Assembly (NCBI GenBank): GCA_014695295.1
Contig: JACJNY010000070.1
Coordinates: 186,001 to 250,000, forward strand
Origin: Microcoleus sp. FACHB-61
GTDB taxonomy: Bacteria > Cyanobacteriota > Cyanobacteriia > Cyanobacteriales > Microcoleaceae
Length of the DNA stretch: 64,000 nt
Reading direction: 5' to 3'
Both the position numbers and the translations under genes were made by a program. The notes beneath the pieces were generated by a model that was given only the letters and a program-made list of their open reading frames with translations, did no database searches and was not told where the DNA came from. Shown piece after piece: positions 2,266 to 50,038 of the stretch; the stretch's first letter is position 1; each line of letters begins with the position of its first letter.

Positions 2266-2640
2266 TTATGATAAATGTTTGCCCACCACTTGCTCGGCTA
2301 CGCGGCTAATTCCGGGCAACCATAGCGGTTGACGCTTCCAGAGGCGAACCATCAGTCCCAGAGCAACGATGAAATAGCTGGTTGTCAGCAGGCTACTCAT
2401 TAATAACATGGGAAGTGTCGGAGATTCCGCAGAAATCGCTCCAGCTTCTAAAAGAATATGTCCTAAGAGCCAACTAAAAGCAAGGGCAATTGCCAAGCGG
2501 CTGACGGCTTTGCGTTCGGGGCTACCCTGACGGCGGTAAAGAGTCCACAGGGCGGGGAAAAACCCGATGACTGGGATCATTAAGACAAACAGACTGGCAC
2601 GATCGAGTTCAGGATTTTCTAAGGGATCTCTATTTTTCAT
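2266..2640 (-). CDS. Small conserved-looking membrane protein
   Basis: A 124-residue protein I cannot assign to a named family. It begins MKNRDPLENPELDRASLFVLM and has about four hydrophobic segments: LFVLMIPVIGFFPALWTLY, LAIALAFSWLLGHILLEAG, LLMSSLLTTSYFIVALGLMV, and a weaker C-terminal one. The motif RRQGSPERKAVSR lies between the first two, in a probable cytoplasmic loop. It lies on the same strand as the LCP gene with 92 bp between them, so cotranscription is possible but not shown. It is probably a plasma-membrane protein; no function is proposed. Confidence 0.75.
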   Translation of the reverse strand: MKNRDPLENPELDRASLFVLMIPVIGFFPALWTLYRRQGSPERKAVSRLAIALAFSWLLGHILLEAGAISAESPTLPMLLMSSLLTTSYFIVALGLMVRLWKRQPLWLPGISRVAEQVVGKHLS

Positions 2641-2883
2641 AATTCGCTACTCAAAATTTGCAGAAGGTCAGATTTTGCACAAAAGTTATTTGTTGGACGG
2701 AAAATTTATATCCTAAACCAAAATTCGGAGAGCCGGGCTGGTACGATCGCAAAACTTGTCTGTCAGAGGCAAAATTTTTTGGCGCTCCCGATCGGGCAAC
2801 CGAGCGTTGGCAACTTTTCGGCCCGGAGAGCCTTATTTTGATAAACTGGATACAGCACAGGAGACAGGAGAACAGACTTAGCC

Positions 2884-3585
2884 ATGACCCAATCCCAAAA
2901 ACCGATCGTTATTGCTCCATCCATATTATCAGCCGATTTTAGCCGTCTCGGAGAAGAGATTCAGGCTGTCGATCGAGCTGGGGCTGACTGGATTCACGTA
3001 GATGTGATGGACGGTCGCTTTGTTCCTAATATTACTATCGGGCCGCTGATTGTTGAGGCAATTCGCCCTGTTACTACCAAGGTGATCGATGTCCACTTGA
3101 TGATTGTGGAGCCGGAGAAGTACGTCGAGGACTTCGCTAAGGCTGGTGCTGACATTATTTCGGTTCACGCCGAGCATAATGCTTCGCCTCACTTGCACCG
3201 CACCCTCGGCCAAATTCGGGAATTGGGCAAAATGGCTGGTGTAGTTCTGAATCCTTCGACGCCTTTGGAGTTGATCGAGTACGTGCTGGAACTTTGCGAT
3301 TTGGTGCTGATTATGAGCGTCAATCCCGGCTTTGGCGGTCAAAGTTTTATCCCGGCTGTTTTGCCGAAAATTCGCCAGTTGCGCAAAATGTGCGACGACA
3401 AGGGCCTCGATCCTTGGATTGAGGTAGATGGCGGTTTGAAGGGGAACAATACTTGGCAGGTTCTGGAAGCGGGCGCAAATGCGATCGTCGCTGGTTCTGC
3501 TGTGTTTAAGGCGAACGATTACGCAGGCGCGATCGAGGGTATCCGCCACAGCAAGCGCCCGACTCCTGAGTTGGCTGCGGTTTAA
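2884..3585 (+). CDS. rpe: Ribulose-phosphate 3-epimerase
   Basis: Interconverts D-ribulose 5-phosphate and D-xylulose 5-phosphate in the Calvin cycle and the oxidative pentose phosphate pathway. The 233-residue length is normal for the family. TIM-barrel signatures are all present: [16 protein letters not shown] at the N-terminus (catalytic Ser/Asp region), [12 protein letters not shown] with metal-ligand His and Asp, [18 protein letters not shown], and EVDGG with the second catalytic Asp followed by the phosphate-binding loop VAGSAVF. The ATG at 2884 directly precedes the conserved N-terminus. A strong hairpin plus T-run follows at 3697-3731. A long open frame on the opposite strand (2929-3672) is an antisense shadow. 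Confidence 0.97.
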
Positions 3586-3607
3586 CTCACATCTTCTACC
3601 ACTCTCA

Positions 3608-3682
3608 AGAACAGGCTTTCCGGCCTGTTCGACAAAGAGTAAATTTGATTGTGGGGTGTCCCGCCCGCCCATAAAAAGGCTT
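3608..3682. repeat. Dispersed GC-rich repeat, copy 1
   Basis: A roughly 75-bp unit starting AGAACAGGC, containing an AACAGGC/GCCTGTT hairpin, then GACAAAGAGTAA, GTGGGGTGTCCCGCCCGCCC and AAAAAGGCTT. It matches a second copy at 28302-28378 along its whole length. The GC-rich core also appears as a perfect palindrome at 59477-59525. Confidence 0.75.
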
Positions 3683-7586: not shown

Positions 7587-7641
7587 AATGAGTGGAGGAG
7601 AGGGGAGGAGCGGGGAGGGCGCGGGAGAGCGGGGGAGGGGG
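7587..7641 (+). repeat. G-rich purine tract
   Basis: About 50 nt of almost pure purine on the plus strand (GTGGAGGAGAGGGGAGGAGC, then more G-runs). Several runs of four or five Gs could form G-quadruplexes. It lies about 275 bp before the sensor kinase. A related tract is at 37682-37743. Confidence 0.6.
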
Positions 7642-7912
7642 ATAATTTTTCAGCAGCGCGCGCATTAAGTGCCGAATGTTGTATGAGGCTCTTTCGACAT
7701 CCGTAAAAAATGAAGAGAGAAATAGGCGACAGGTTAGTGCAGACTTAAGTCTATGCTGAGAGTTTGACCGTTAAAATCAACAGGGTGCAGCAATTCCCAA
7801 GTTTGGTGGCGATCGGGTTAAATAATCTGCTAAATAAGAGTTAGCGTCAGGGCTAACTTCCTGCCGGATCGAACTAAAATTTCTGTTATTAGTAAAAATT
7901 ATCTAAAACCCT

Positions 7913-10840
7913 ATGGGAGCAAGGAGCAGTAACCCCCTCGAAGCAGCCGGCCCGACTCGTGAGCCGATCAAAATAGGCGTGTTGCATTCGCTGACGGGCA
8001 CGATGTCCATCAGCGAAATTTCTGTTAAAGATGCGACGCTGTTAGCTGTTGAGGAAATTAATGCGGCGGGAGGGGTGCTCGGACGCCCATTGGAAGCGGT
8101 GATAGAAGATGGAGGCAGCGATTTGCAGACTTTTGCTCAAAAAGCTAAGCAATTGCTCCTAGAAGCGCAGGTGGCGGTGGTATTTGGCTGTTGGACTTCG
8201 GCGAGCCGCAAAGCTGTACTGCCGGCTTTCGAGCACGGCAGCGGGTTGCTGTTCTATCCGGTGCAGTATGAAGGGCTAGAACAGTGTCCGAATATTTTCT
8301 ACACTGGTGCTGCCCCGAACCAACAGATTGTGCCTGGGGTGAATTACTTGCTGGCAGAGGGGAAGCGGAAAATTTTCCTGTTGGGTTCGGACTATATCTT
8401 TCCCCGCACGGCAAATATGATTGTGAAAGCTCAACTGGCGGCACTGGGGGGAGAGTTGGCGGGGGAAGTGTATCTGCCGCTGGGTTCGAGCGAAGTGGGC
8501 GAGGCGATCGCACATATCTTAGCAGTGAAACCGGATGCTATTCTCAACACTCTCAACGGTGACAGCAATGTGGCTTTTTTCCAAAAGCTGCGGGAAGCTG
8601 GCTTGAAGCCCGAGGATTTGCCGGTGATGTCGGTCAGCGTAGCAGAAGAGGAAGTGCGGGCTATCGGGCCGTCCAATATTGCTGGACATTTGGTGGTTTG
8701 GAACTATTTTCAAACGGTGGATACACCGGAAAATCGTAAATTTGTCAAGGCTTATAAAGCCCGATACGGGGAAAATCGAGTCACGGATGACCCGATCGAA
8801 GCTGCTTATTTGGGCGTTTACCTGTGGAAGCAAGCAGTAGAAAAAGCTGGTTCGACAGATGTGGTTAAAGTCAGGGCGGCTGCTAAAAATATTGAGTTTG
8901 CAGCGCCCTCGGGCAAGGTAAAAATAGATGCCCAAACGCAGCATACTTGGAAAACAGTGAGGATTGGTAAGGTGAGGTTGGACGGTCAAATTGAGGAGAT
9001 TTGGAATTCGGGCGCACCGGTGCAGCCAGATCCTTTTCTCAAAGCCTATCCTTGGGCGGCGGCATTTGCTCCGAGGCAGATTTCTTTGGGAACTCGGGCT
9101 TCTTTGATCGGGCTGTTTGTCATCTTGGTACTGATAACTTGGATGGCGGTGGGAGTCGGGTGGATGGGTTCTGTGGATATGAAGAACTATTTGCTGGCAA
9201 TAAAAGCTGCCTCAGCTCCGGGGGCCGGGGTTTCTGATGGAGCAATGGCGGTGCTGGTGCAGCAAACTCTGGCGGTGGCGAGCCGCACTCAGCACTGGCT
9301 GCTGGGGGCTTTGGTTTTGAGTTCGATCGCGGGGATAGTGGGTTTTGTGTCGGTGTCGGCAATTATTCGGAATCTCGGCTTGCTGCGGGAAACGGCTGAA
9401 CTGATGGCGAGCGGTGATTTGACGGCTCGATCGTCTGTGGTTTCTAATGACGCGATCGGGGTGCTATCTTCTACTCTCAATACAATGGCTCAGCAAATTA
9501 GCAATTTGCTCAACGGTTTGGAAGTGCGCCAGCGGCAGCTAGAGGAACGATCGGGCGAATTGGAAGTCGCTAAGAATGCTGCGGAAGCTGCCAACCGAGC
9601 GAAAAGCACATTTTTGGCAAATATGACTCACGAGTTGCGGACGCCCTTGAATGCGATTATCGGCTACAGCGAGCTGCTGCAAGAAGAGGCTCTGGAACTC
9701 GGCGAAGAAGAGTTTGTGATGGATTTGGCAAGCATTAATATGGCAGGCAAGCAGTTGCTCAACATTATTAGTGACATCCTAGATATTTCTAAAATTGAAG
9801 CAGGAAAGATGACTCTTTTCTTGGAGACTTTTGAAGTGTTGAATTTGATCGAGCAGGTTGTTACTACTGTTCAACCCCTGCTAGGGAAAAATGGCAACAC
9901 TTTGATAGTCAATTGCGATCCTAATATTGGCACGATATACGCTGATTCGGGGAAGCTGCGGCAAGCGCTGTTGAATTTGGTGAGCAATGCTGCTAAGTTT
10001 ACCGAGCGAGGCAAAATTACGATTAATGTTTGGAAGGAAGAAGGGGAAGTTTTGCAGATCGACAATTCTGAAGAACTCTGGGCAGATCTTTCTGGGTGTC
10101 AAAAGCCTTCGATCGTGTTTCAAGTCACCGATACCGGGATTGGCATGACTGAGGATCAGGTGTCGAGGCTGTTCGGAGCTTTTACCCAAGCAGACGATTC
10201 TACTACCCGCAGATACGGCGGCACAGGTTTGGGGCTGACAATTAGCCGGAAGTTTTGCCAGATGATGGGCGGGGACATTACGCTTGAAACCGAGTTTGAT
10301 AGCGGTTCTACTTTTACGATCAGGTTGCCGGTGGTGGTAAAAAGCCAGAAAGAACCGGCGCCCGCTCCAGAAATCAAACCAATGCAGCCGAAGTCTTCCG
10401 ACAAGTTAGACACGAGTGTAGCGGCGACAGTAGCGGAGGAAAAAGAAGTGCGATCGCCACCGCTGGAGCTGCCCGATGCTGCTACTGTCCTAGTGATTGA
10501 CGACGATCCAGACGCGCGGGATTTGATGACCCGCTGCTTGTCGAAAGAGGGATTTGGGGTGCGATCGTCGGCTAGCGGTGAAGGGGGGCTTCTGTTGGCT
10601 AAGGAGTTACTGCCGGACGCGATTATTCTGGACGTGATGATGCCGAGTATGGACGGCTGGGCGGTACTCTCGGCGTTGAAAGCCGATCCGGATTTGGCTG
10701 ATATTCCGGTGATTATGATAACTTTTTTGGACGACAAAAATCAGGGTTTGGAATTGGGAGCGGCGGAGTATTTGAGGAAGCCTTTGGATTACAAGCGCTT
10801 TGCTGCTTTATTGAGCAAATATCAGGGCCCCGGGAAGTAG
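7913..10840 (+). CDS. Hybrid histidine kinase with UrtA/AmiC-like ligand domain
   Basis: A 975-residue sensor kinase. Residues ~18-370 are a type I periplasmic-binding fold of the urea/amide/branched-chain amino acid class ([25 protein letters not shown]-like ending), close to UrtA/AmiC in motif order ([20 protein letters not shown]). Two membrane segments follow at ~398-418 and ~462-485, then a HAMP-like linker, HisKA with phospho-His ~573 ([16 protein letters not shown]), HATPase_c (N-box ~688, DTGIGM ~740, [16 protein letters not shown]) and a C-terminal receiver (~857-975; IDDDPD, phospho-Asp ~907 in ILDVMMP, Lys ~956). There is no N-terminal signal peptide and an in-frame stop lies just upstream. 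The likely ligand is urea or a short amide, by inference from fold similarity. Confidence 0.92.
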
Positions 10841-11627: not shown

Positions 11628-12110
11628 TTAATCTAAGAAGCCCATTAATGCCGAGCTATCGTCAATTTCGTTTGACGCAATAGGGCGGTTTCCTCCCATT
11701 GTGGAGTAAACTTCATCAATGTGCAGAGTGCTCATGGCAATAGGGCGGGCACCAGACATACTGAACATTTCGCTGACTTGCATGGCGCTGGAGCCGATCG
11801 GGCGATTGCCGAGTGTAGCAACCACTTCAAAGTCGCTGGATTCGACTGGGCGATTGCCTACAATGCCGTAGGTTTCGCTGAGGTGCAGGGTGCTAGTGCC
11901 GATCGGGCGGTTCCCCGAGATCGAGACGGTTTCGCTGATGGTAAAATCGTCTGGGCCGACGGGGCGGTTGTCATGCAGGAGTTGAGGCCGATAAAGTTGA
12001 ATTCCTGTTGCTTTGGCATCCGTGGGTTCTGTCGGTTGGCTTTTGGAACTGCCTTTGCCGCGGCGGGCGATCGCTTTGCCTTTGCCTGTACCTGTACTGC
12101 TCGTATCCAT
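11628..12110 (-). CDS. NRPI-repeat protein, unknown function
   Basis: A 160-residue protein: a basic, Ser/Gly-rich N-terminus (KGKAIARRGKGSSKSQ) followed by six tandem units of about 19 residues, each opening with (N/A)RP(I/V) and containing an acidic or Ser-Glu position near the middle. Examples are NRPVGPDDFTISETVSISG, NRPIGTSTLHLSETYGIVG and NRPIGSSAMQVSEMFSMSG. It ends in NEIDDSSALMGFLD. There is no signal peptide, membrane segment or cysteine. I believe similar repeat proteins exist in other cyanobacteria, but I know no function. It is divergent from uvrB across 180 bp. The regular units suggest a repeat fold or a multivalent binding surface; that is inference. Confidence 0.75.
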   Translation of the reverse strand: MDTSSTGTGKGKAIARRGKGSSKSQPTEPTDAKATGIQLYRPQLLHDNRPVGPDDFTISETVSISGNRPIGTSTLHLSETYGIVGNRPVESSDFEVVATLGNRPIGSSAMQVSEMFSMSGARPIAMSTLHIDEVYSTMGGNRPIASNEIDDSSALMGFLD

Positions 12111-28594: not shown

Positions 28595-31588
28595 TTAACT
28601 GTGCCAAGCTTCATAATAGTCTGGGAAAGGCATAGTTTGAGTGCATTGCGAAAGAACCTCGTAACACTTACGATAAATATCGAAATCTTCCTGGGTATAT
28701 ATCTGATTTTGCAGAGGATGTTTTAAATTTGAGACTGCAGATGACAGCGGATATCTTTTAAGTATTTTTCCCAAACTATAAGCGATGTAAATAGGAATAT
28801 CTGGATCGTTGTAAATCATGTCTATTAATACCTTGATTACTTCTTCGTGCCTTACGTTAGTATTACCCAGGTATTGAATGGCAAAATTACTAATTACAAA
28901 ATTGCTGTGGCGACTCAACTCAATCAGTAGCGCAACTGCTTGCTTATCATTAGTACCAAATTCGCCTAAAAGCCTGACCGCATCCCGAAAAATACCCTCA
29001 TTAGGACTATTGTGAATTATATCAATAAGTGGCTGAATTGCTTTAGGAGATTTAGAGCAAATATGCTCGAATGTTTCTTCTGCCCATCTACGTTTTAATT
29101 CGTCTTTACTAGATTCTTTTTCGTCAAGCAGCCAGTGGAGTAATTGCCAAACACCATCAAAAAGGCTACGTTCAATAATTATGCCAGCTTTAGGATGGGC
29201 GGGTGCAATTTTCGCTAAGCTAAAATACGCTTCACTAGGAATAAATTCATCAGCACTTTTTTCTATCAGAGCGACTAACCTCGCGATCGCTTGCTCATTA
29301 CCGGGAACGATTTTCCCCAAACACTCAGCAGCTTTTACACAAGTGTACTCATCCTGACTGTTTTGCATCATATTATTCAGCTCATCTATCAATTGCTGAT
29401 TGTTCTGACCAATAAATTCTAAGCTATTAAATGCTTTATCAATGATATACCTCCCTTGGTCAAGAGGATAGATATCGAAAGTTGTACGAATTAAGTTAAT
29501 AAGTGCATCGATTGCTTGTTGGTTGCCCGTTCCAATTTTTCCCAAACTGAGAGCCATATCTGCCAACATAGCATTAGTAGCATTATTGCTACTGTTAAGC
29601 ATCAGGTTAATTAAAGCAGGGATGCTTCGGCTGCGATCGCTCTCTTGGAATGCAGCTATAGCTGCTTTTGAACTTGGACAACTTTCCGTAACCAACATCT
29701 GCCTCTCTAAATTGAAATAACCAAATGCCCATCTCATCAATTGCGAAAGGATTGTATCAGCACAGCTACATTCCTTAAACTCAGCAATACCTATGGCTGC
29801 TAAACAATACGCTCGGTATTCATAAAAACCTTTGCGATCTAAAATACAATCCCGACATCCATCTTGAAATTCAACCAAAGCCTTAATAAACGCTTCCTTA
29901 TTCTCTGTTCGTACATCCTCGCGCCCCAGCCACAATAAAATAACCTCTTTCCAGTGGCGCTCAAAAATTCGGTAACTTGCTTTAGAGTCTTTGGGGTTGT
30001 CAGGAATGTGATTCAGGAAAAAGTTCCAATCATCAATGGTACGCGCCGCGAAATATTCCTGAAACGTGGGATGCCAGAAAGCATAAACGGGTTCTTCAGG
30101 TTCATCTGCATCCATTCCCACTTGATTCAGCCAACCCAAATCCAGGGCCAATTGCAGCAGAGAATCTTTATCCTTTGGCTTGCCCAAAAGCTGACAAACA
30201 AACTTATGTCGCAAGCGAAACCGAGTAGGTTCTTTATCGATCGCTTCTCTGGCCAACTCTCCCAGCTTAGCATTCAGCCGCTCTTGATTATTAGAGTCCA
30301 GGGGGAAATACTCTGCTTTCCACTCAAAGATTTTATCGACAAATTTTTGATATAATTTCGCTTTTGTATCAGGCAAATCGCCGTCTCGCCCTTGCCAAAT
30401 TGCACACAACAGGGTCAACCTTAAAGGATTTTTGGCTAAATCCTTAATCCGTTCCTTTCCTGGTTGATGAATTGCTTGCCACAAGCGATCGCCCAATGCG
30501 TTATCTTTACTAAACCACTTCTCGATAAACTGCTGTACCTGGGGATATGTGAACGGTTGAGTAATATAAAATTCAAAGCCATCCAAAATGCGGGGGTTAG
30601 CCTGCCAAACATTCAGCCGACAACTTGTTACTATCCGCACATGAGTCAGCAAACCCCTTGCAGATAAGGTTTCCTGCATCTCTGCTGCCATTTCATCTAG
30701 CCCATCTAACAGCAACCACACCTGCCGCTGTTCCAACTGACTTTTCCAAGCTGTCTGCAAGTTTTCAGTGACAGTTCCCTCTGCATCTCGCAGCCAATCA
30801 TTAAATATGTAATCAATTAGATTCGTCGCTAAACGTCCTAGAGAAACCCAAATCACCAAATCATCTGTATTATCTAACAGCCAGAAAGCGATTTTCTGTA
30901 AAAGCGTGGTTTTGCCTCCTCCTGGTTCACCAATGATGGCAATTCGATCGTTTTTCTTAGTGCTCAGGAGTGTTGTGAGAAATTGGCTGTATTCAAATCT
31001 TTCGGTTTTGCTGTACCCCGTTGACTCATACAACAGCGAACCCTGTTCAGGTGATGAGTCGCCTCCAACCTTTTGGATTTGCTCCTGCTGCACTAAGGTC
31101 AAATCTACATAGATATTTTCATCAATCAGATCGCGGTTCATCTGAGGCATTAGCTTATTGCTGCTTAGTCGCTTCTGTTCTAGCAGCATCCGGCGACAAA
31201 CCTCCTGCCATTTGTCGGGAGTGTCCTGAAATGGCAAACCTTCAGTCTCATTATTCGCAGCAAGGTTAGAGGTTGCAGGTATGTCAGACAGCTTTCCTGT
31301 TTTCTGATATTGAGCATATCCAGTTTTCAGCCACTCTCGCAGTAGCTCGAATTTACCCTTTTTACCAGAATCAAGCTTGGGGCAACTTTGAGAAAACTTG
31401 CCATAGACTTCTCCTAATCGTCTTCCCAGCGTAGCCTCGCTGACGTTCAGCTCATTGGCTAACTTCGCGTTTGATACCTTTGACTTTAAATTTCGCTCAG
31501 CGAACCTCGTCATGAAAACCTGTCTATCGTCCACATCGAACAAGCTGTGAGTATCAGCAACTTTTTCCAGAAAGTCATCCCAGGACAT
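28595..31588 (-). CDS. NACHT NTPase with HEAT-like repeats
   Basis: A 997-residue STAND-class protein. Residues 1-70 form a helix-turn-helix-like domain (NAKLANELNVSEATLGRRLG). The NACHT ATPase has Walker A GEPGGGKTT at ~220-228 and Walker B VWLLLDGLDEM at ~290-300. A helical region then includes YAFWHPTFQEYFAAR, typical of NACHT C-terminal helical domains. The last ~330 residues are HEAT-like repeats (IGKIGTGNQQAIDALINLI, LGKIVPGNEQAIARLVALI, LGEFGTNDKQAVALLIELS). Proteins of this layout can act as nucleotide-dependent sensors, and some bacterial NACHT proteins defend against phage. Which ligand the repeats bind is unknown. No effector domain is evident besides the N-terminal HTH-like part. 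Confidence 0.92.
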   Translation of the reverse strand: MSWDDFLEKVADTHSLFDVDDRQVFMTRFAERNLKSKVSNAKLANELNVSEATLGRRLGEVYGKFSQSCPKLDSGKKGKFELLREWLKTGYAQYQKTGKLSDIPATSNLAANNETEGLPFQDTPDKWQEVCRRMLLEQKRLSSNKLMPQMNRDLIDENIYVDLTLVQQEQIQKVGGDSSPEQGSLLYESTGYSKTERFEYSQFLTTLLSTKKNDRIAIIGEPGGGKTTLLQKIAFWLLDNTDDLVIWVSLGRLATNLIDYIFNDWLRDAEGTVTENLQTAWKSQLEQRQVWLLLDGLDEMAAEMQETLSARGLLTHVRIVTSCRLNVWQANPRILDGFEFYITQPFTYPQVQQFIEKWFSKDNALGDRLWQAIHQPGKERIKDLAKNPLRLTLLCAIWQGRDGDLPDTKAKLYQKFVDKIFEWKAEYFPLDSNNQERLNAKLGELAREAIDKEPTRFRLRHKFVCQLLGKPKDKDSLLQLALDLGWLNQVGMDADEPEEPVYAFWHPTFQEYFAARTIDDWNFFLNHIPDNPKDSKASYRIFERHWKEVILLWLGREDVRTENKEAFIKALVEFQDGCRDCILDRKGFYEYRAYCLAAIGIAEFKECSCADTILSQLMRWAFGYFNLERQMLVTESCPSSKAAIAAFQESDRSRSIPALINLMLNSSNNATNAMLADMALSLGKIGTGNQQAIDALINLIRTTFDIYPLDQGRYIIDKAFNSLEFIGQNNQQLIDELNNMMQNSQDEYTCVKAAECLGKIVPGNEQAIARLVALIEKSADEFIPSEAYFSLAKIAPAHPKAGIIIERSLFDGVWQLLHWLLDEKESSKDELKRRWAEETFEHICSKSPKAIQPLIDIIHNSPNEGIFRDAVRLLGEFGTNDKQAVALLIELSRHSNFVISNFAIQYLGNTNVRHEEVIKVLIDMIYNDPDIPIYIAYSLGKILKRYPLSSAVSNLKHPLQNQIYTQEDFDIYRKCYEVLSQCTQTMPFPDYYEAWHS

Positions 31589-38952: not shown

Positions 38953-40224
38953 TTATGGCCGCTGAATAATTGTTTCAACTACCCGCCGCTTGACTTTTGG
39001 ATCGATACCAATCAGCCGCACGTATTCGCCGCCGTGTTCCGCCAAACAAGTTTCTAAAGATGCAACCACATCTTTTTCTTGTTCAGTTTTAATTGTCGCG
39101 CAACTTTGCCAAGAACCAGTTTTAAATCGGCGATTATCTGCATATTCCATCCCTATTTTGCAGCCTCTTGCTAATAACTGCTTTACTTGTTCCAATACCT
39201 CGGAACTCAGCCGCGCCGCATGACCGTTACCCGCTTCAGAACTTGGCTCAACGTAAGCCTTATAATATTTGGATGACGGGTCGTTTAATTCACTTTGCGT
39301 GGGCGCAGCAGCAGGGGCATTGGGGGTTCCTTGAACGTTAAACAGCCGCGATTGGTTGTATTCATCTACTAAGCGCATTTCCTTAATCCGCTTTTGTTGG
39401 CCCACCATCAAACTGCCCATTTCTATTAAATGAGCGAGACTGAAATTCGGGTTATGGAAATCTGGCGCTGCTTCCAAAGTGTTTACCAAACGCTTGGAAA
39501 CTCGCTCAATTCCTATTTTGTGAATGAATTCGCGGATTTGTTCGTCATAAATGCGCGATCGCAAAGCGCTAAAAAAGTCGATCGCCTGATCGGGAAACTT
39601 ATCGACTAACGCCACAATATCGGTTTTTGACAATTTGTCCGACTCAAAAATTCCCCCAACAATGCCAATTTTATCATCCCGGCTGGGTTCCCAATAAAAC
39701 TTTTCCATCCGCCCGTCGCGAATCAGCGGCGCGTACAGCGTAGAAAAATCATTTCCGGTGACAATAATCGGCACTCGGTGCAGCGGCGTACTGTCATAAC
39801 TTCCGGGTAACTGCACGTTAGTTGGATTATCAGCAATATTCATCAGAGTCGCATTGACCATCTGAGTATTGACAGTATATTGAGTAGTAGTATCGAACCT
39901 GCCAGCACCAGCATCCAAATCGTTAATAAAGATGGCGCACATCTCGCCGCGCACGCGAATTTGCTCCGCAGCTTCCCGATAGCGCAAGCGAATTAAACGC
40001 GCCGGATCTCCTGCATCCGGGCTTTCTAATTCCCCACCAGATATCATCACCGGTTCAAAGCCCATTCGCCGAAAAACCAGTTCGGTTTGAAAAGTTTTGC
40101 CTTCTCCTTTGCGGCCGTGAATTCCCAAAATTAGGGGAACTCTTACCCCGGGCAAATTTAAAAAGTTCTTAGTGACGTGCACCGCAACTTTATCGAGAAA
40201 GTTAGGAGAAATGTAATAACTCAT
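38953..40224 (-). CDS. rca: Rubisco activase with SSUL domain
   Basis: A 423-residue AAA+ ATPase that frees inhibited Rubisco. Walker A is GIHGRKGEGKTFQ (~35-46), Walker B region CAIFINDLDAGAGRFD, and other AAA+ marks include VPIIVTGNDFSTLYAPLIRD with a sensor/arginine-finger region (GRMEKFYWEPSRDD). After a flexible linker (~310-335), the C-terminal ~85 residues resemble the Rubisco small subunit: LSSEVLEQVKQLLARGCKIG, ADNRRFKTGSWQSC and YVRLIGIDPKVKRRV. This is the cyanobacterial form in which the small-subunit-like domain draws the activase to Rubisco, linked to carboxysome recruitment. No Rubisco genes lie nearby. It converges with rbsK. Confidence 0.95.
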   Translation of the reverse strand: MSYYISPNFLDKVAVHVTKNFLNLPGVRVPLILGIHGRKGEGKTFQTELVFRRMGFEPVMISGGELESPDAGDPARLIRLRYREAAEQIRVRGEMCAIFINDLDAGAGRFDTTTQYTVNTQMVNATLMNIADNPTNVQLPGSYDSTPLHRVPIIVTGNDFSTLYAPLIRDGRMEKFYWEPSRDDKIGIVGGIFESDKLSKTDIVALVDKFPDQAIDFFSALRSRIYDEQIREFIHKIGIERVSKRLVNTLEAAPDFHNPNFSLAHLIEMGSLMVGQQKRIKEMRLVDEYNQSRLFNVQGTPNAPAAAPTQSELNDPSSKYYKAYVEPSSEAGNGHAARLSSEVLEQVKQLLARGCKIGMEYADNRRFKTGSWQSCATIKTEQEKDVVASLETCLAEHGGEYVRLIGIDPKVKRRVVETIIQRP

Positions 40225-43404: not shown

Positions 43405-43456
43405 TTGGTTGCACGGAAGCAGCGCTCCTATGGTTAATAGTTTGGCGGAATGCACG

Positions 43457-46400
43457 ATGAACGAACAGCGTCGCAAAACTGATGTTAATATGCTCCAAGC
43501 GCTGCTGGAAAATCCTGTGGAGTCAGGAATAGATTTGATTTTGAGCACGAACCCAAAGTCGATCGACTTGGGATTCGTGCAAACGCTTTATTTGGAAGAA
43601 CCGGCACTGACGCGAGAAAGTTTGCTGAAAGCTGCAAAATTTTTCCAAAAGGCGATCGCACCCTTAGAATCGGCAAAGGGCAATTCTAAATTGCCCGCAA
43701 CCGGCGCAGCATATCTGGCTTTTTTAGCAGAAGTATTGCACGCAGTGGCGCGCAGCGGTGATTCGCAGCACCTGTACTCGCTGCTGAGAAACAATTTAGA
43801 TAAACTCGATCAGAATTTCGCACAACTGCTGCGCGGCTGGGCAACTTTAGTGTTTTCTGCTGCCAAAGAATCCGAGAGAAGGCGCGTTGCAGCCCTGATC
43901 GGCAATCTGAGTAACAAAATTGGGCGGTTTCCCCTCGGCAGCAAGGCTAATAACTTGGAAATCGAAATTGCCGGTTACGAAACAGTTGCTAAGGTTTTTA
44001 CCCGCAAAGACTTTCCCCAGGAATGGGCGGCGATGCAAAACAATCTCGGCAACGCTTACAGCGATCGCCCCAAAGGTGATAAGGCTCAAAATATCGAACA
44101 GGCGATCGCTTGCTTTGAAAATGCCCTGCAAGTGCGCACGCCCGAACAGTACCCAGAACAGTGGGCAACGCTGCAAAACAATCTGGGCAACGCTTACAGC
44201 GAGCGCGTCAAAGGAGATCCGGCAGACAATCTAGAACGGGCGATCGCCTGCTATCAAAACGCCCTGCGAGTTCGCACCCGCGAAACTTTCGGGGAAGAGT
44301 GGGCGAGCACTCAAAACAATCTCGGCCGTGCTTACAGCCGCCGGCTGCGGGGCGACAAAGCCCAAAATCTGGAACTGGCAGTCGCTTGCTACCACAATGC
44401 TTTGCAAGTCTACAACCGCAAGGTGTTTCCCCGGCGCTGGGCCACGACTCAAAATAATTTGGCAAATGCTTACTGCGAGTTCCTGCAGGGCAACCGAGCC
44501 GAAAATCTCGAATACGCGGTCACCTGCTATCAGAGAGCTTTGCAAGTGCGAACTCGGGAAGCTTTTCCGCTGCAGTGGGCGACGACTCAAAGGAATTTGG
44601 GCCGGGTGTTTGTCGATCGCATCAAAGGCGATCCGGTGGAAAATGTGGAAATGGCCCTCGCCTGCTATCAAAATGCTTTACAAGTCTACACCCGCATCAA
44701 ATTTCCCGAAGCCTGGGCTTCGATCCAAACTTACCTCGGTAGGATTTACAGTCGGCGGGTGAAAGGGGAAAAAGCCGAAAATATGGAAATGGCGATCGCG
44801 TGCTATCAAAATGCTTTGCTGTTTTGCAACCGCCAAAAAACTCCCGAACGCTGGGCAATGCTGTGTGCTTACCTCGGCCGCGCTTTCTGCGAACACGTAA
44901 AAGGGGAAAAAAACCGCAACCTCAAAAGCGCGATCGCCTGCTATCAAAATGCCGGCGAAGTCTACACCAGGCAGGCATATCCCAACCGCTGGGCAATGCT
45001 GCAAATTTATCTCGGCCGGGCTTATTCGCAACTGACGGAGACGGAAAACTTGTCCCACGTGGAAAGCGCGATCGGCTGCTATCACAGCGCCACCCAAGTC
45101 TACAGTCGCGAAACCTATCCCCACCGCTGGGCTGAAATTTTATTTTATTTGGGTCAAGCTTACCGAGTTCGAGGCGAGTTGCTTCGTGCCTACGGGGTTT
45201 TTACTGCTGCTGTCGATACTGTGGAATTTTTGCGTTGCGAAGTTGGGGTTGATACAGTCGATTTGGGCGATCTGACGAGTACCGCAAAAGTCAAATTAAC
45301 CCGCACCTGGGCTGGGCTCTATAAATGCCTGGTGCAAGTTTGCCTGGAACTCGGCGCCAGCCAACCCGAATATTACGCTAAGGCTCTGGAATACGCCGAA
45401 CGCCACAAAAATCGGAATTTGGTAGAACTGCTGGTTAAATGCCACCTGACTCCGAAAGCCGAAATTCCAGCAGCGGTGCGAAGCGAGTTGGAGTCGCTGC
45501 AACGGCAAATAGCGGGGGAACAGCGGCACCAAGAACAGGGAGAACGCCAGCCGAACACTACCTTGATTTCTGAGGGCGATAGCCAAGGTTTGACCAGCGG
45601 TTCTCTGCTGCCGAACTCGGACTTGATGCACTTAAATCAATTGTGGCGGCAGTTTGACGGGTTGATTGCTCGGGAGGTGCAGGCAAACGACCCTTTCTTC
45701 AGCCTAGCTCGCAAAGTTGAACCGATCGCTTTCGAGCAAATTCGCCAATTGTTGCCTGATGCCAATTCCGCTGCTGTGGTGTGGGCGAGTTTGGGGGACT
45801 TGCTGGTCGCTTTTGTGGTGGTGAAGAGTGCACAATATCCGGCCGTTCACCTGTGTTCGCCGGAAAATGCTTTGGCTGTCGAAAGTTGGGCCCAAGAGTA
45901 CCTCAGCGCTTATTCTGAACAAAAAGGCCGCTGGATCAATCATCTCCCGGCTCGCCTCAAACGTTTGGCATCGCTGCTGGAAATCGATCGAGCGGTGGCG
46001 CTGATTCCGGAGAATTGCGATCGCCTGATTTTTGTGCCGCACCGATTTTTGCACGCTTTGCCGCTCCACGCTTTGCCTCTGGGGATGAGAGACGGGTTTG
46101 AGGACGGCGGGGGAATTTTTCGGTCTGGGTGGAGCGATCGCAGCGGTTTTGATGTGGAAACCTACAGCGTTTCGGATTTTTCTCAAGGTTCGGCATTTGC
46201 CGACGTTTCAGCGCCTGCTGCTTATTTGATCGATCGATTTCCCGGAGGAATCCGCTATGCTCCTACCTGTCAGCTATTGCTGTTGAAACAAAGTGCGCGC
46301 GAAGCAGCTATTGGTCGGTACAGACCGCGTTTGGAGCACCTTTTGGCAGTTCCAACTTTCACCAGAGATGCGTTCTACAGCAACATTGAAATCGGCCATA

Positions 46401-47086
46401 TTTCCCAGTATTTTTCCAGTGCAGAAGTTGTGCGCCAGAAGCCGGCAATTAAAGAGGCTTTTTCCCGAGGGATGTCTGCTAATAATGGGGATTTACCCCA
46501 GCAAATAGGGCAGTTGCAGCAGAAAAAATGCGCTCACTTTGCTTGTTTGAGTTTGCTTAATTTGGCTTTGCCGCTGAAATCCGCAGTGTTTTTGAGGAAT
46601 GAGTTTCTGAGTTTGGAGGAAATTTTCGATCTGGATTTTCGGCAATATTTTTTAGTTACTTTATCTGGTTGCGAAATTGCGGCCGGCGGAGTTAGCGGTG
46701 CAGGAGGAGATTTTGTTGGTTTGTCGGCGGGTTTGTTGTATGCTGGCACCTCTAGTGTGGTCAGCAGTCTTTGGAAGGTGAACGATGTTTCGACACTGCT
46801 GCTGACGAGCAAGTTTTATGAAAATCTCGGACGGTTTCCTCGGTTGCAGGTGGGAGATGTGGCGATCGCGCTGGGGGACGCTCAAAGGTGGCTGCGGGAT
46901 TTGACTGGCGAGGAGTTGGAGGTGTTGCTGGCGGATTTTCAACCTCAAATTTCGCAAATGTTCGATCGGCTTTCTCAAAGTTCTCGCCTGATTGCGGAGG
47001 CTTCTTTGCAGCAAATTCGCAACCGCAAACCTTATCCTTTTGCGAATCCTTATTATTGGGCGGCTTTTACTGCGACTGGGGTTTAG
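43457..47086 (+). CDS. TPR-CHAT domain protein (caspase-like)
   Basis: A 1209-residue protein from ATG 43457 (MNEQRRKTDVNMLQALLENP); upstream in-frame starts reach 43409. After an N-terminal helical domain come eight regular 46-residue TPR-like units (~195-562; NNLGNAYSxR.KGD and ALQVxTRExFPxxWA). A helical bridge follows, then the C-terminal CHAT protease-like domain (~740-1209): RFLHALPLHALPL, catalytic His ~1027 in CAHFACLSLLN, and Cys ~1072 in VTLSGCEIAAGG, where most CHAT proteins have HFACHG and LSACE. SAGLLYAGTSSVVSSLWKVN is conserved. CHAT proteases act in signalling and defence, but the target here is unknown. The gene starts some 50 bp after the TnpB element. Confidence 0.9.
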   Translation: MNEQRRKTDVNMLQALLENPVESGIDLILSTNPKSIDLGFVQTLYLEEPALTRESLLKAAKFFQKAIAPLESAKGNSKLPATGAAYLAFLAEVLHAVARSGDSQHLYSLLRNNLDKLDQNFAQLLRGWATLVFSAAKESERRRVAALIGNLSNKIGRFPLGSKANNLEIEIAGYETVAKVFTRKDFPQEWAAMQNNLGNAYSDRPKGDKAQNIEQAIACFENALQVRTPEQYPEQWATLQNNLGNAYSERVKGDPADNLERAIACYQNALRVRTRETFGEEWASTQNNLGRAYSRRLRGDKAQNLELAVACYHNALQVYNRKVFPRRWATTQNNLANAYCEFLQGNRAENLEYAVTCYQRALQVRTREAFPLQWATTQRNLGRVFVDRIKGDPVENVEMALACYQNALQVYTRIKFPEAWASIQTYLGRIYSRRVKGEKAENMEMAIACYQNALLFCNRQKTPERWAMLCAYLGRAFCEHVKGEKNRNLKSAIACYQNAGEVYTRQAYPNRWAMLQIYLGRAYSQLTETENLSHVESAIGCYHSATQVYSRETYPHRWAEILFYLGQAYRVRGELLRAYGVFTAAVDTVEFLRCEVGVDTVDLGDLTSTAKVKLTRTWAGLYKCLVQVCLELGASQPEYYAKALEYAERHKNRNLVELLVKCHLTPKAEIPAAVRSELESLQRQIAGEQRHQEQGERQPNTTLISEGDSQGLTSGSLLPNSDLMHLNQLWRQFDGLIAREVQANDPFFSLARKVEPIAFEQIRQLLPDANSAAVVWASLGDLLVAFVVVKSAQYPAVHLCSPENALAVESWAQEYLSAYSEQKGRWINHLPARLKRLASLLEIDRAVALIPENCDRLIFVPHRFLHALPLHALPLGMRDGFEDGGGIFRSGWSDRSGFDVETYSVSDFSQGSAFADVSAPAAYLIDRFPGGIRYAPTCQLLLLKQSAREAAIGRYRPRLEHLLAVPTFTRDAFYSNIEIGHISQYFSSAEVVRQKPAIKEAFSRGMSANNGDLPQQIGQLQQKKCAHFACLSLLNLALPLKSAVFLRNEFLSLEEIFDLDFRQYFLVTLSGCEIAAGGVSGAGGDFVGLSAGLLYAGTSSVVSSLWKVNDVSTLLLTSKFYENLGRFPRLQVGDVAIALGDAQRWLRDLTGEELEVLLADFQPQISQMFDRLSQSSRLIAEASLQQIRNRKPYPFANPYYWAAFTATGV
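44039..45142 (+). repeat. Eight coding repeats of 138 bp (46 aa) in the CHAT gene
   Basis: Each unit encodes xxLGxAYxxRxKGDxAxN then AIACYQNALQVxTRxxxPxxWA. Spacing is exactly 46 residues for all eight, with a ninth degenerate start at FYLGQAYRVRG. Confidence 0.9.
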
Positions 47087-47431: not shown

Positions 47432-49651
47432 TTAGGACTTTTTGCCGAAAATTTGTTCTTTCAAGGCTTGAATTTCTTGACCTAATTGTTGCCGGTTGGA
47501 CGATCGCAGCAAATAGCGGTAGACAAACCATCCGGTGTATCCGATACCAATTAGCTCGAATGTGGGTGCTAGCAGGGGGATGTCGTTGAGTTCATCTATT
47601 ACCCCCAAAAGCACTTTCAAAGAGATAATCGAGGCTACAATTACACCGATAACAGTCAGGGGACTTTTGTATTGCTCGTAAAAGCTGCCGATGTAAGCGG
47701 GAAACTCGGACAAAATTGAGAGAATTTGTTCTTTGATCTGCTGGGTCTGACTTGGCGGTTCGTCGGTAATTATGACTTGTGTTGTACCCATCGAACTTTC
47801 TGCTTCATTTCCGGCAGGAATTTCGGTGATGATAACGGTTGTTTCTGGTTCGTTTGATGAAGTCATTTCTCCACTCGCAATAGTTTTTTGCTGGTTGGCG
47901 GCAGGTATTTCAACTGCTGCTGCGGCTGTTTCCACAGTCGATATATCGACTGCTGAAACCTCGGTGGCGGCTGTTTCCACAGACGATATTTCGACTGCTG
48001 CGACCTCCGTTCCGGCTGTTTCGGTAGCCGATATATCGACTGTTTCTGGAACCGGTATTTCGACTGCTGTCACCTCGGGCGCTGCTGTTTCAACAGTCGG
48101 TGTTTCGACCGCTGGCTGTTCTGTAACAGGAGTTTCGGCGACTGTTTCTGCGTTTGGTTGTTCTGGGGTACGAGTTTCGTCCGCGACACCAACAGCCGGC
48201 AAATTCAAGTTGCTAATGGCATCAAGCAAGCGGGTTTTAGCCGTCCCCCGCTGATGAAGGATTACCCACGATTCTATCAGGTCGGGGCCGTGCATTGCAC
48301 CTGTCAGAGCGGCTCTGAGCGATCGCATAATTAGCCCTTTGTTCAGATTTTTCTCTTTACTGAGCTTTTTAGTGATTTTCTGAGCTTCCGCTGATGTCAG
48401 GGAGGAATGACTTTCCATCGCTTCTACAACTGCTTGTAAAGCCTGTGCAGCCCCTGGTTGCTGCAACTGTGCGAGTGCTTCTTCTTCATATTCCACCGTG
48501 GTGGAGAAGAACAACTTGCACATATCCACAGCATCGGTTAAGCGAACGAGACTCGGGCCGATTAAAGCAGCTATTTGTTCGAGCCAAGAGCGGTCTGCCT
48601 CGGAGTCAAACTCATAACCGCCTTTCTGCCACCAATAAGGTATCAGCAAATCAGTCAATTGCGGCACTGGCATTTTGTGCAGGTATTGACTGTTAAGCCA
48701 ATTGAGTTTATCCCAATCAAATTTTGCACCGGCTTTGTTGACTCGATAGAATGTAAATAATTCTGCTGCTTCCGACAGTGTAAATATTTCCTGCGTTGAA
48801 TCCGGCGGAGTCCAACCGAGCAAAGTCATGTAATTAACTAAAGCTTCGGGCAGGTAGCCCATATCTTTGAAGTCAGAAATCGAGGTTACGCCGTCGCGTT
48901 TAGAAAGCTTTTGTCCTTGGGAGTTTAAAATCAGCGGCGTGTGGGCAAATTCTGGGATTGTCGCGCCCAAAGCTTCGTAGAGCAATATTTGTTTCGGAGT
49001 ATTGCCGATGTGATCTTCGCCGCGGATGACGTGGGTGATGCCCATGTCGATGTCATCGACAACTACGGCGAGGTTGTAGAGTGGTTGGCCGATGACGCCG
49101 CCGCTGGATGCACGGGCAATCACCATATCGCCGCCGAGGTCGCTACCTTTCCAGGTTACGGTGTCGCGCACCATGTCGTTCCAAGAAATTGTGCGATCGT
49201 CGTCGATGATAAACCGAATCACAGCTTGTCGCCCTTCGCCTTCAAAAGCTGCGCGCTGTTTGCTTGTCAAGTTGCGGTGCCGGTTGTCGTAGCGGGGGGC
49301 TTGTTTGTTGGCTTTTTGTGCTTCCCGCATTTCGTCGAGTTCTTCCGACGTGGTGTAGCAGCGGTAGGCGAGTCCATTGTCGAGAAGGGTTTGGACTGCT
49401 TGGCGGTATATTTCCAGACGCTGCGACTGAAAACTCGGGCCTTCGTCCCAGTTCATACCCAGCCAGGTGAGACCTTCGAGAATGTTATCGGTGTATTCGC
49501 TTTTAGAACGTTCTACGTCTGTGTCTTCTACCCGCAGGATGAATTTGCCGCCTTGGTTGCGGGCAAACAGCCAGTTGAATACGGCGGTTCTGGCGGTACC
49601 GATGTGTAGGTTTCCGGTGGGACTGGGGGCTAGACGGACTCTGACATTCAT
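47432..49651 (-). CDS. gltX: Glutamyl-tRNA synthetase with C-terminal CAAD domain
   Basis: A class I aminoacyl-tRNA synthetase that charges tRNA-Glu, and in cyanobacteria usually also tRNA-Gln before amidation; it also supplies Glu-tRNA for tetrapyrrole synthesis. From ATG 49651 the protein has 739 residues, about 480 being the enzyme: [19 protein letters not shown] (HIGH-type) and LSKRDGVTS (KMSKS-type). Beyond it lies a ~140-residue linker rich in VET/AVEI repeats. A CAAD-like domain follows, with two membrane helices ([38 protein letters not shown]) and a C-terminal amphipathic helix. CAAD domains anchor some cyanobacterial synthetases to thylakoids. A longer open frame upstream to 49918 is not conserved-looking. 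Confidence 0.95.
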
Positions 49652-50038
49652 GTAGATTTTTGCTTTTAGATTGGGGGCGATTTGCTGGTTGGGCGAATAG
49701 CTGATGTTTAAGACTTCAAATTTTATTATATTTTGTTGCCGACTTAATAGTTGTGCTTGGCAGGTGCTTTGCCTCGAATTGCTTGATAATAGGCGATCCT
49801 CTTCGAGGGCTTTCCTTCGGATGGCGGAGCTAACAAGCGATCGGGCGAAAGTCTCCGGCAAGGCACTAGAAGACACCTTGATGATATTAGCATTGCGGGC
49901 GACCAAGACTGGATTCACCTTTGGGACTATTTTTCACAGCACAAATAACTGCTTTAGGAGTACCCAAGCCGCACCTGATAACTATTGATGCTTGTAAAAT
50001 GTTTGTGTGCGATCGACGACATTAAAATATATTTCCCT

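Follow-up and report, generated by a model that had tools for sequence, protein, structure and literature searches.

A leaderless UrtA-type domain fused to a membrane-tethered hybrid histidine kinase: a candidate intracellular urea sensor in Microcoleus

The 64,000-nucleotide stretch of Microcoleus sp. FACHB-61 DNA analysed here (the window) encodes a hybrid histidine kinase that begins with an UrtA-type ligand domain and carries no recognisable export leader. We put the probability at roughly 70% that this protein is a membrane-tethered kinase whose cytoplasmic UrtA-type domain reports intracellular urea, judging from its sequence and that of its homologues. The reading draws on a ligand pocket that matches that of urea-binding UrtA, on two membrane helices that would leave the ligand domain and the kinase on the same side, and on homologous loci that uniformly lack a leader.

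Gene and domain architecture

The open reading frame starts with the ATG at position 7913 and was searched with the Pfam HMMs and with the NCBIfam model for UrtA, TIGR03407 (Table 1). The ligand domain scored 539.9 bits against the UrtA model, above the cut-off of 492.75, and the Pfam family Peripla_BP_5 covered residues 19–378 with an E-value of 9.4e-156, in agreement with the original prediction that this domain starts about 18 residues in. That prediction had also named a HAMP, HisKA, HATPase and receiver fusion; the last three were all found, making up the domain set of a hybrid histidine kinase, and the HAMP-like region fell just below the Pfam cut-off. The in-frame stop predicted two codons before the ATG is present as well. 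A frameshift or misplaced start was considered and rejected, as the three upstream frames are broken by stops, the gene's own frame contains no leader and the orthologues agree; in another frame, about 500 bases upstream, a short hydrophobic stretch is followed by stops.

Two further observations concern the upstream DNA. The roughly 45 bases 5' of the ATG (7868–7912) are alike in most Microcoleus orthologues despite the closed frame and represent a possible promoter or leader element, and a purine-rich, G-heavy low-complexity run lies upstream of the gene at 7590–7645.

Homologous loci were gathered from 27 of 29 same-genus genomes (the window's own included), from two of 69 other relatives (G047 and G077), from database records and from genome G399. 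This resulted in 39 loci, including Laspinema palackyanum (L045) and L179 (from G399), which represent 33 distinct sequences with the window's own copy counted; two are cut at a contig end and some are one gene present in two collections. The first pocket count, the 114-row tree and the charge and identity counts omit the minus-strand orthologue loci L011, L014, L015, L016, L018, L024, L025 and L035, and the leader and pocket counts were redone with all 39 loci.

Table 1. Positions of the kinase gene and its features in the window
Feature	Position	Strand	Basis
UrtA-type ligand domain/hybrid histidine kinase, 975 aa	7913..10840	+	ORF translation, Pfam
In-frame TAA stop, two codons 5' of the start codon	7904..7906	+	Sequence; same distance in 29/39 homologous loci
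N-terminal tail, 17 residues, without hydrophobic stretch or twin-arginine motif	7913..7963	+	Hydropathy, motif scan
UrtA-type ligand domain, residues 18–378	7964..9046	+	TIGR03407, Pfam, fold search
Nine pocket residues (span)	8192..8638	+	Alignment to UrtA of MIT 9313; residue list from PMC10392092
Membrane helix 1, residues 398–418	9104..9166	+	Hydropathy, charge counts, AlphaFold
Hairpin loop, residues 419–461, variable, predicted periplasmic	9167..9295	+	63% mean identity, acidic > basic, AlphaFold
Membrane helix 2, residues 462–485	9296..9367	+	Hydropathy, charge counts, AlphaFold
HAMP-like region, residues 482–530	9356..9502	+	Pfam, 24.6 bits (cut-off 25.0, 0.4 bits short)
HisKA domain, residues 563–631; His573 (counted from sequence)	9599..9805	+	Pfam
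HATPase domain (HATPase_c), residues 678–807	9944..10333	+	Pfam
Receiver domain (Response_reg), residues 859–965; Asp907 in IILDVMMP (counted from sequence)	10487..10807	+	Pfam

Ligand pocket

In UrtA of Prochlorococcus MIT 9313, which binds urea with a Kd of 141 nM, each of nine pocket residues was mutated, and eight were found to matter for binding and F192 hardly (PMC10392092). The window protein keeps all nine in an alignment (W94, S96, Y115, Q118, E120, Y161, F163, N215 and S242), as do 38 of the 39 loci, the exception being L179 with six. The first pocket alignment omits nine duplicate rows and L085, whose sequence stops at residue 252. Eight of the positions are invariant in 71 of 71 single-domain UrtA proteins; at position 192, 63 of these have F and 8 have Y. 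Among solved structures the nearest is the periplasmic urea-binding protein of Caldicellulosiruptor saccharolyticus (8tg1), at 65–66% identity. When the parts of the kinase were compared across 21–22 rows, the ligand domain, with a mean of 88.6% identity to the window protein, was second only to HisKA (93.6%) in conservation, ahead of the receiver (85.8%) and the ATPase (75.6%).

Because the UrtA urea pocket is complete and AmiC matches only four of its nine positions, urea is expected over short amides, and we consider it the probable ligand. A cytosolic urea/amide sensor resembling AmiC had been proposed for this gene; the cytosolic part of that proposal is supported, and the pocket is not of the AmiC type. 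With four matching positions and 33% identity, an AmiC-like amide sensor was set aside as the default and kept as an alternative for the ligand. Recognition of another small amide or amidine, such as acetamide, guanidine, allophanate or a urea derivative, is unlikely on this evidence, the near-invariant nine residues and the five at which AmiC differs both counting against it. In its favour, the same fold serves AmiC for short amides, the soluble fusions described below differ at pocket positions, and a urea-type ABC cluster beside amidase genes has been suggested to carry another amide in a published survey that deals with permeases (PMC3098086).

Membrane topology

The original prediction recognised only two membrane helices, and this holds: the hydropathy (KD) profile exceeds 1.5 only at residues 398–416 (19-mer KD 2.59) and 467–485 (2.36), receiver residues 891–922 peaking at 1.42 and the N-terminus showing no peak. 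Of the 39 loci, 38 extend into the membrane region (L085 ends before it, at residue 252), and all 38 have hydrophobic segments at both places, with an additional third peak at 438 in L041. Over 23 rows, the mean number of K and R residues per 21-residue flank is 3.39 before the first helix and 3.48 after the second, and the 41-residue loop averages 2.48 basic and 3.43 acidic residues. An AlphaFold model of residues 1–560, built from a 29-row alignment (mean pLDDT 78.4; below 50 at residues 384–395 and over most of 485–560), contains a confident ligand domain followed by helices 392–434 and 442–499 with a short turn between them. In this model the membrane element, whose helices are joined by about 43 residues, is a hairpin rather than a domain. 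A pair of helices leaves the ligand domain on the same side of the membrane as the kinase.

Sensor kinases usually pass their signal through a hairpin and a HAMP, and textbook members sense periplasmic ligands. The input could accordingly be sought in the membrane or periplasmic hairpin, with the UrtA domain serving as a docking or dimerisation module that exerts no ligand control, a proposal to which the nearby ORFs scanned lend something in that no urea gene was identified among them. We consider it improbable, since the loop is short and variable (Table 1), with seven residues fewer in both L036 and L037, and conservation is seen instead in the ligand domain and the pocket.

Absence of an export leader

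The ligand domain was originally described as lacking a signal peptide, and comparison of homologue N-termini and upstream DNA was proposed as a check. That comparison leaves the description standing: no leader was found ahead of the ligand domain in any of the 39 loci, as judged by hydropathy and inspection by eye. The stop lies exactly two codons upstream of the aligned start in 29 of the 39; in nine others the frame stays open for 6 to 43 codons, and the start of L179 is about ten residues further in. Single-domain UrtA proteins, mostly cyanobacterial, served as the control. With motif patterns devised for this analysis, a twin-arginine-type motif was found between the Met and the domain in 67 of 70, and in the other three (L047, L071 and L111) a hydrophobic run with a cysteine at its end was seen by eye; the twin-arginine motif of L047 sits ahead of its start codon and is for that reason outside the 67. 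An export signal is recognisable in single-domain UrtA and not in the kinase. Twin-arginine export translocates folded proteins, which makes it plausible that an UrtA domain folds and remains in the cytosol. Calcium in UrtA crystals was dropped as a marker of location, calcium chloride being part of the crystallisation buffer in the published description.

The missing leader, the charge pattern, the AlphaFold hairpin and the existence of soluble fusions with neither leader nor membrane pair together indicate that the ligand domain is very probably cytosolic, and they support the earlier view that it lies with the kinase on the cytoplasmic side. Export by an unrecognised route to sense periplasmic urea, through a start further upstream or N-terminal translocation driven by the first helix, is very improbable: in 7 of 23 distinct proteins the frame is indeed open for 6 to 43 codons before the Met, and the 43 of L017, the longest, hold a mildly hydrophobic stretch (12-mer KD 1.21), but the frame is closed in most loci, the DNA of its relatives that aligns with the L017 stretch is closed by stops, two helices behind an N-terminus on the outside would place the kinase outside as well, and we know of no bacterial route for leaderless translocation of a folded N-terminal domain of about 380 residues.

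Proposed mechanism

In the cytosolic reading, urea would arrive through UrtABCDE or by diffusion, or would be produced inside the cell, and the two lobes would close around it through the conserved W-S-Y-Q-E-Y-F-N-S pocket. Closure would be relayed to the dimeric HAMP/DHp region, either via the element formed by the two helices and their hairpin or by direct cytosolic contact, whereupon His573 autophosphorylation and transfer to Asp907 would change. A phosphotransfer protein or regulator could then tune how urea is taken up and used, or how the cells move towards it. We consider it reasonably likely that urea controls the kinase. At an affinity of 141 nM, a cytosolic sensor could be saturated unless ureolysis holds urea low or the affinity is shifted; about 4 mM intracellular urea is reported for cultures of the heterotrophic partners rather than for the cyanobacterium (PMC11844795). 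An intracellular sensor need not be the chemotaxis sensor. The protein stops behind the kinase in L045 and L179 and just inside the receiver in L036 and L044, so the output may differ between orthologues.

Distribution and genomic context

Among the same-genus genomes, 27 of 29 gave a match over the whole query (residues 1–529); the copy in G003 is cut after residue 252, and G006 has only an UrtA-level match. Close matches come from records named Microcoleus, Tychonema, Microcoleaceae and similar. A query consisting of the linker, helices and HAMP passed an E-value of 1e-15 in 24 of 388 genomes of the cyanobacterial class, with the whole query covered only in G000, G001, G018 and G399 and the other matches aligning to the HAMP/kinase part. 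The membrane-tethered type is rarer than the soluble UrtA-domain family.

The genomic context of the kinase was examined by a Pfam scan of ten nearby ORFs, which identified no urea function and no urt genes beside the kinase. The scanned order includes a LytR-like protein, a DsbA-like thioredoxin, two ORFs without a family, the kinase, another ORF without a family, UvrB and DUF433; the next forward-strand ORF begins at 11721, 880 bases downstream. As to an AmiR-type partner, no ANTAR family was found among the ten ORFs, three smaller ORFs (2266–3672) lying outside the scan. At least one neighbour is conserved in 13 of the 15 neighbourhoods compared, and L044 and L142, from the same organism, have none. 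No function was inferred from the neighbours.

Elsewhere in the genome, a single-domain urtA adjoins urtB and an UrtC-like gene on a separate contig (C69), and urease and urea carboxylase are encoded on contigs C40 and C23, respectively. Urease was found in 28 of 29 same-genus genomes, the exception (G015) being 87% complete. Of 98 genomes, 13 have a urea carboxylase above the cut-off, 11 from the same genus and 2 from outside it; the sensor is present in all 11 of the former and also in most same-genus genomes without the enzyme, and both of the latter lack the sensor. A strict link between the sensor and urea carboxylase does not match this distribution and was not used as support.

Several other genes of the window were noted for their domain composition. 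A reverse-strand gene (28595–31588) encodes a NACHT domain, HEAT repeats and a C-terminal NCC-H motif, and its match to the antiphage protein EruA is weak and far below the cut-off. TPR repeats are combined with a CHAT domain at 43409–47086 (forward strand). On the reverse strand, a class I tRNA synthetase of the E/Q type ends in a CAAD domain (47432–49918), and the C-terminal domain of a Rubisco activase resembles the Rubisco small subunit (38953–40224).

Soluble UrtA-domain fusions

A second fusion family was found in other cyanobacteria (L102, L119–L132, L134, L135 and L196–L225). Of 17 retrieved proteins, all but L133, a plain UrtA, are UrtA-domain fusions; these 16 have neither leader nor membrane pair, although a weak internal hydrophobic segment (KD 1.64) occurs in L119. 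The output domains were identified by Pfam in five representatives and assigned by eye in the remainder. Behind Peripla_BP_5, L102 and L120 carry GAF and HATPase domains, L129 a HATPase with a weak HisKA, L135 a GGDEF domain, and L123 PAS repeats with a guanylate cyclase.

A profile of the linker of these fusions matched 61 of the 388 class genomes, spread over 26 of 159 genera, a count that includes at least one probable plain UrtA (G111, a 455-residue frame with 37 positions matched) and one partial match (G382). When the N-termini of 30 loci from this search were read, none had a convincing leader, the start of L211 being cut, the frame of L201 stopping at 258 residues and several C-termini being cut by the fetched stretch. 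L208 has a single weak internal hydrophobic segment (KD 1.62). Fewer than 12 residues precede the domain in 16 of 46 protein records, two of the 46 being genes already among the 17. The highest N-terminal hydropathy (12-mer KD 1.76) was seen in L130, in codons ahead of the Met that is common to L127, L134 and L135. The original prediction held that related sensor domains are normally exported; this applies to single-domain UrtA but not to the cyanobacterial UrtA-domain fusions sampled here, which have no convincing leader.

All nine pocket residues are present in 9 of one set of 17 soluble fusions and in 15 of the 30 loci, two genes being in both sets. The pocket is strongly altered in L221, L222, L224, L225 and L132/L206 and partly so in L131 and L223; given these changes, the soluble family probably does not have a single common ligand. 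In L221, L222, L224 and L225 (frames of about 1,010 residues, genus group g88), most of the urea pocket is lost, and these proteins would be expected to bind a different ligand or none.

Origin of the leaderless forms

In a quick tree of 114 rows, the membrane-tethered group formed one clade (support 100) that joined 8tg1 and the Bacillaceae UrtA L047 (97). Cyanobacterial UrtA and the soluble fusions lay elsewhere, and the latter were not resolved as one group. A more careful tree of 57 rows, which omits L131, L132 and many near-copies and whose bootstrap had not settled, recovered the tethered and the soluble groups as clades (100/100 each) and again joined the former to 8tg1 and L047 (99/98). 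The soluble fusions formed their own clade in a 24-row analysis as well. The trees place the ligand domain among UrtA-type proteins and far from AmiC, whose branch is very long. Forcing all leaderless forms together cost 21.9 log units (AU p 0.031, 24 rows), the grouping for this test having been named after the first tree had been viewed. A single origin of all leaderless forms is thereby moderately rejected, and two separate origins are favoured. Its grouping with Bacillota-type proteins suggests an acquisition of the tethered kinase's ligand domain from outside cyanobacteria.

Significance and comparison with known systems

Urea detection in cyanobacteria was not described in the open-access literature matches listed, and the kinase, found in almost all same-genus genomes, is a concrete candidate urea sensor that may explain it. 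According to PMC11844795, urea is the likely nitrogen currency between M. vaginatus and its soil-crust partners, M. vaginatus moves towards urea by chemotaxis, and co-culture induces its urtB and urea carboxylase/allophanate hydrolase genes; the word 'sensor' is absent from its main text. In a survey of cyanobacterial urea genes (PMC6737895), two M. vaginatus strains belong to the small number that have the complete set for transporting and degrading urea; the main text of this survey lacks the terms 'histidine kinase', 'sensor' and 'GGDEF'. The leaderless relatives would represent binding-protein domains used as intracellular receptors fused to second-messenger enzymes. Since the kinase passes the UrtA model cut-off, such genes could easily be given the annotation 'urea ABC transporter substrate-binding protein'.

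Taken jointly, the two families would mean that exported urea-binding proteins became intracellular urea sensors at least twice in cyanobacteria, as a tethered Microcoleus-type hybrid kinase and as a widespread soluble family driving histidine kinases, diguanylate cyclases and nucleotide cyclases, forming one signalling class that lets filamentous cyanobacteria read partner-supplied urea. We offer this wider reading tentatively, at slightly less than even odds. Among the open-access literature matches listed, which mostly do not cover subscription papers, there was no leaderless UrtA-domain kinase and no fused, membrane-tethered urea kinase.

Cytosolic binding-protein sensors are already known in AmiC and NasS, and the kinase can be set beside these and beside its own relatives. 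It shares the fold, the nine pocket residues and a model score above the cut-off with UrtA of the UrtABCDE importer (TIGR03407; PDB 8tg1, 7s6e and 8hic); UrtA, however, is an exported single-domain protein that works with a permease, whereas the kinase is leaderless and fused. The soluble fusions likewise have an UrtA-type domain at the extreme N-terminus, no recognisable leader and a signalling output, but lack the membrane pair and HAMP behind the domain. AmiC is located in the cytosol, and the AmiC–AmiR system of Pseudomonas (PDB 1pea and 1qo0) offers the same fold and an amide receptor that serves as a regulator. The AmiC-like trait of the kinase, a cytoplasmic location without a leader, is predicted from the charge counts and the 39 loci. 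AmiC differs in being a separate protein, at 33% identity, that acts via the antiterminator AmiR, whereas the kinase is fused and membrane-tethered. The complex that AmiC forms with AmiR (PMC3795266) fits a cytosolic AmiC. The same paper describes NasS, a predicted cytoplasmic sensor, as related to the exported nitrate-binding protein NrtA, with the leader missing and the ligand residues retained. NasS–NasT differs from the kinase in its binding-protein family, its nitrate ligand and its output through the RNA-binding NasT, and resembles it in the same evolutionary step, the loss of a leader from an exported binding protein.
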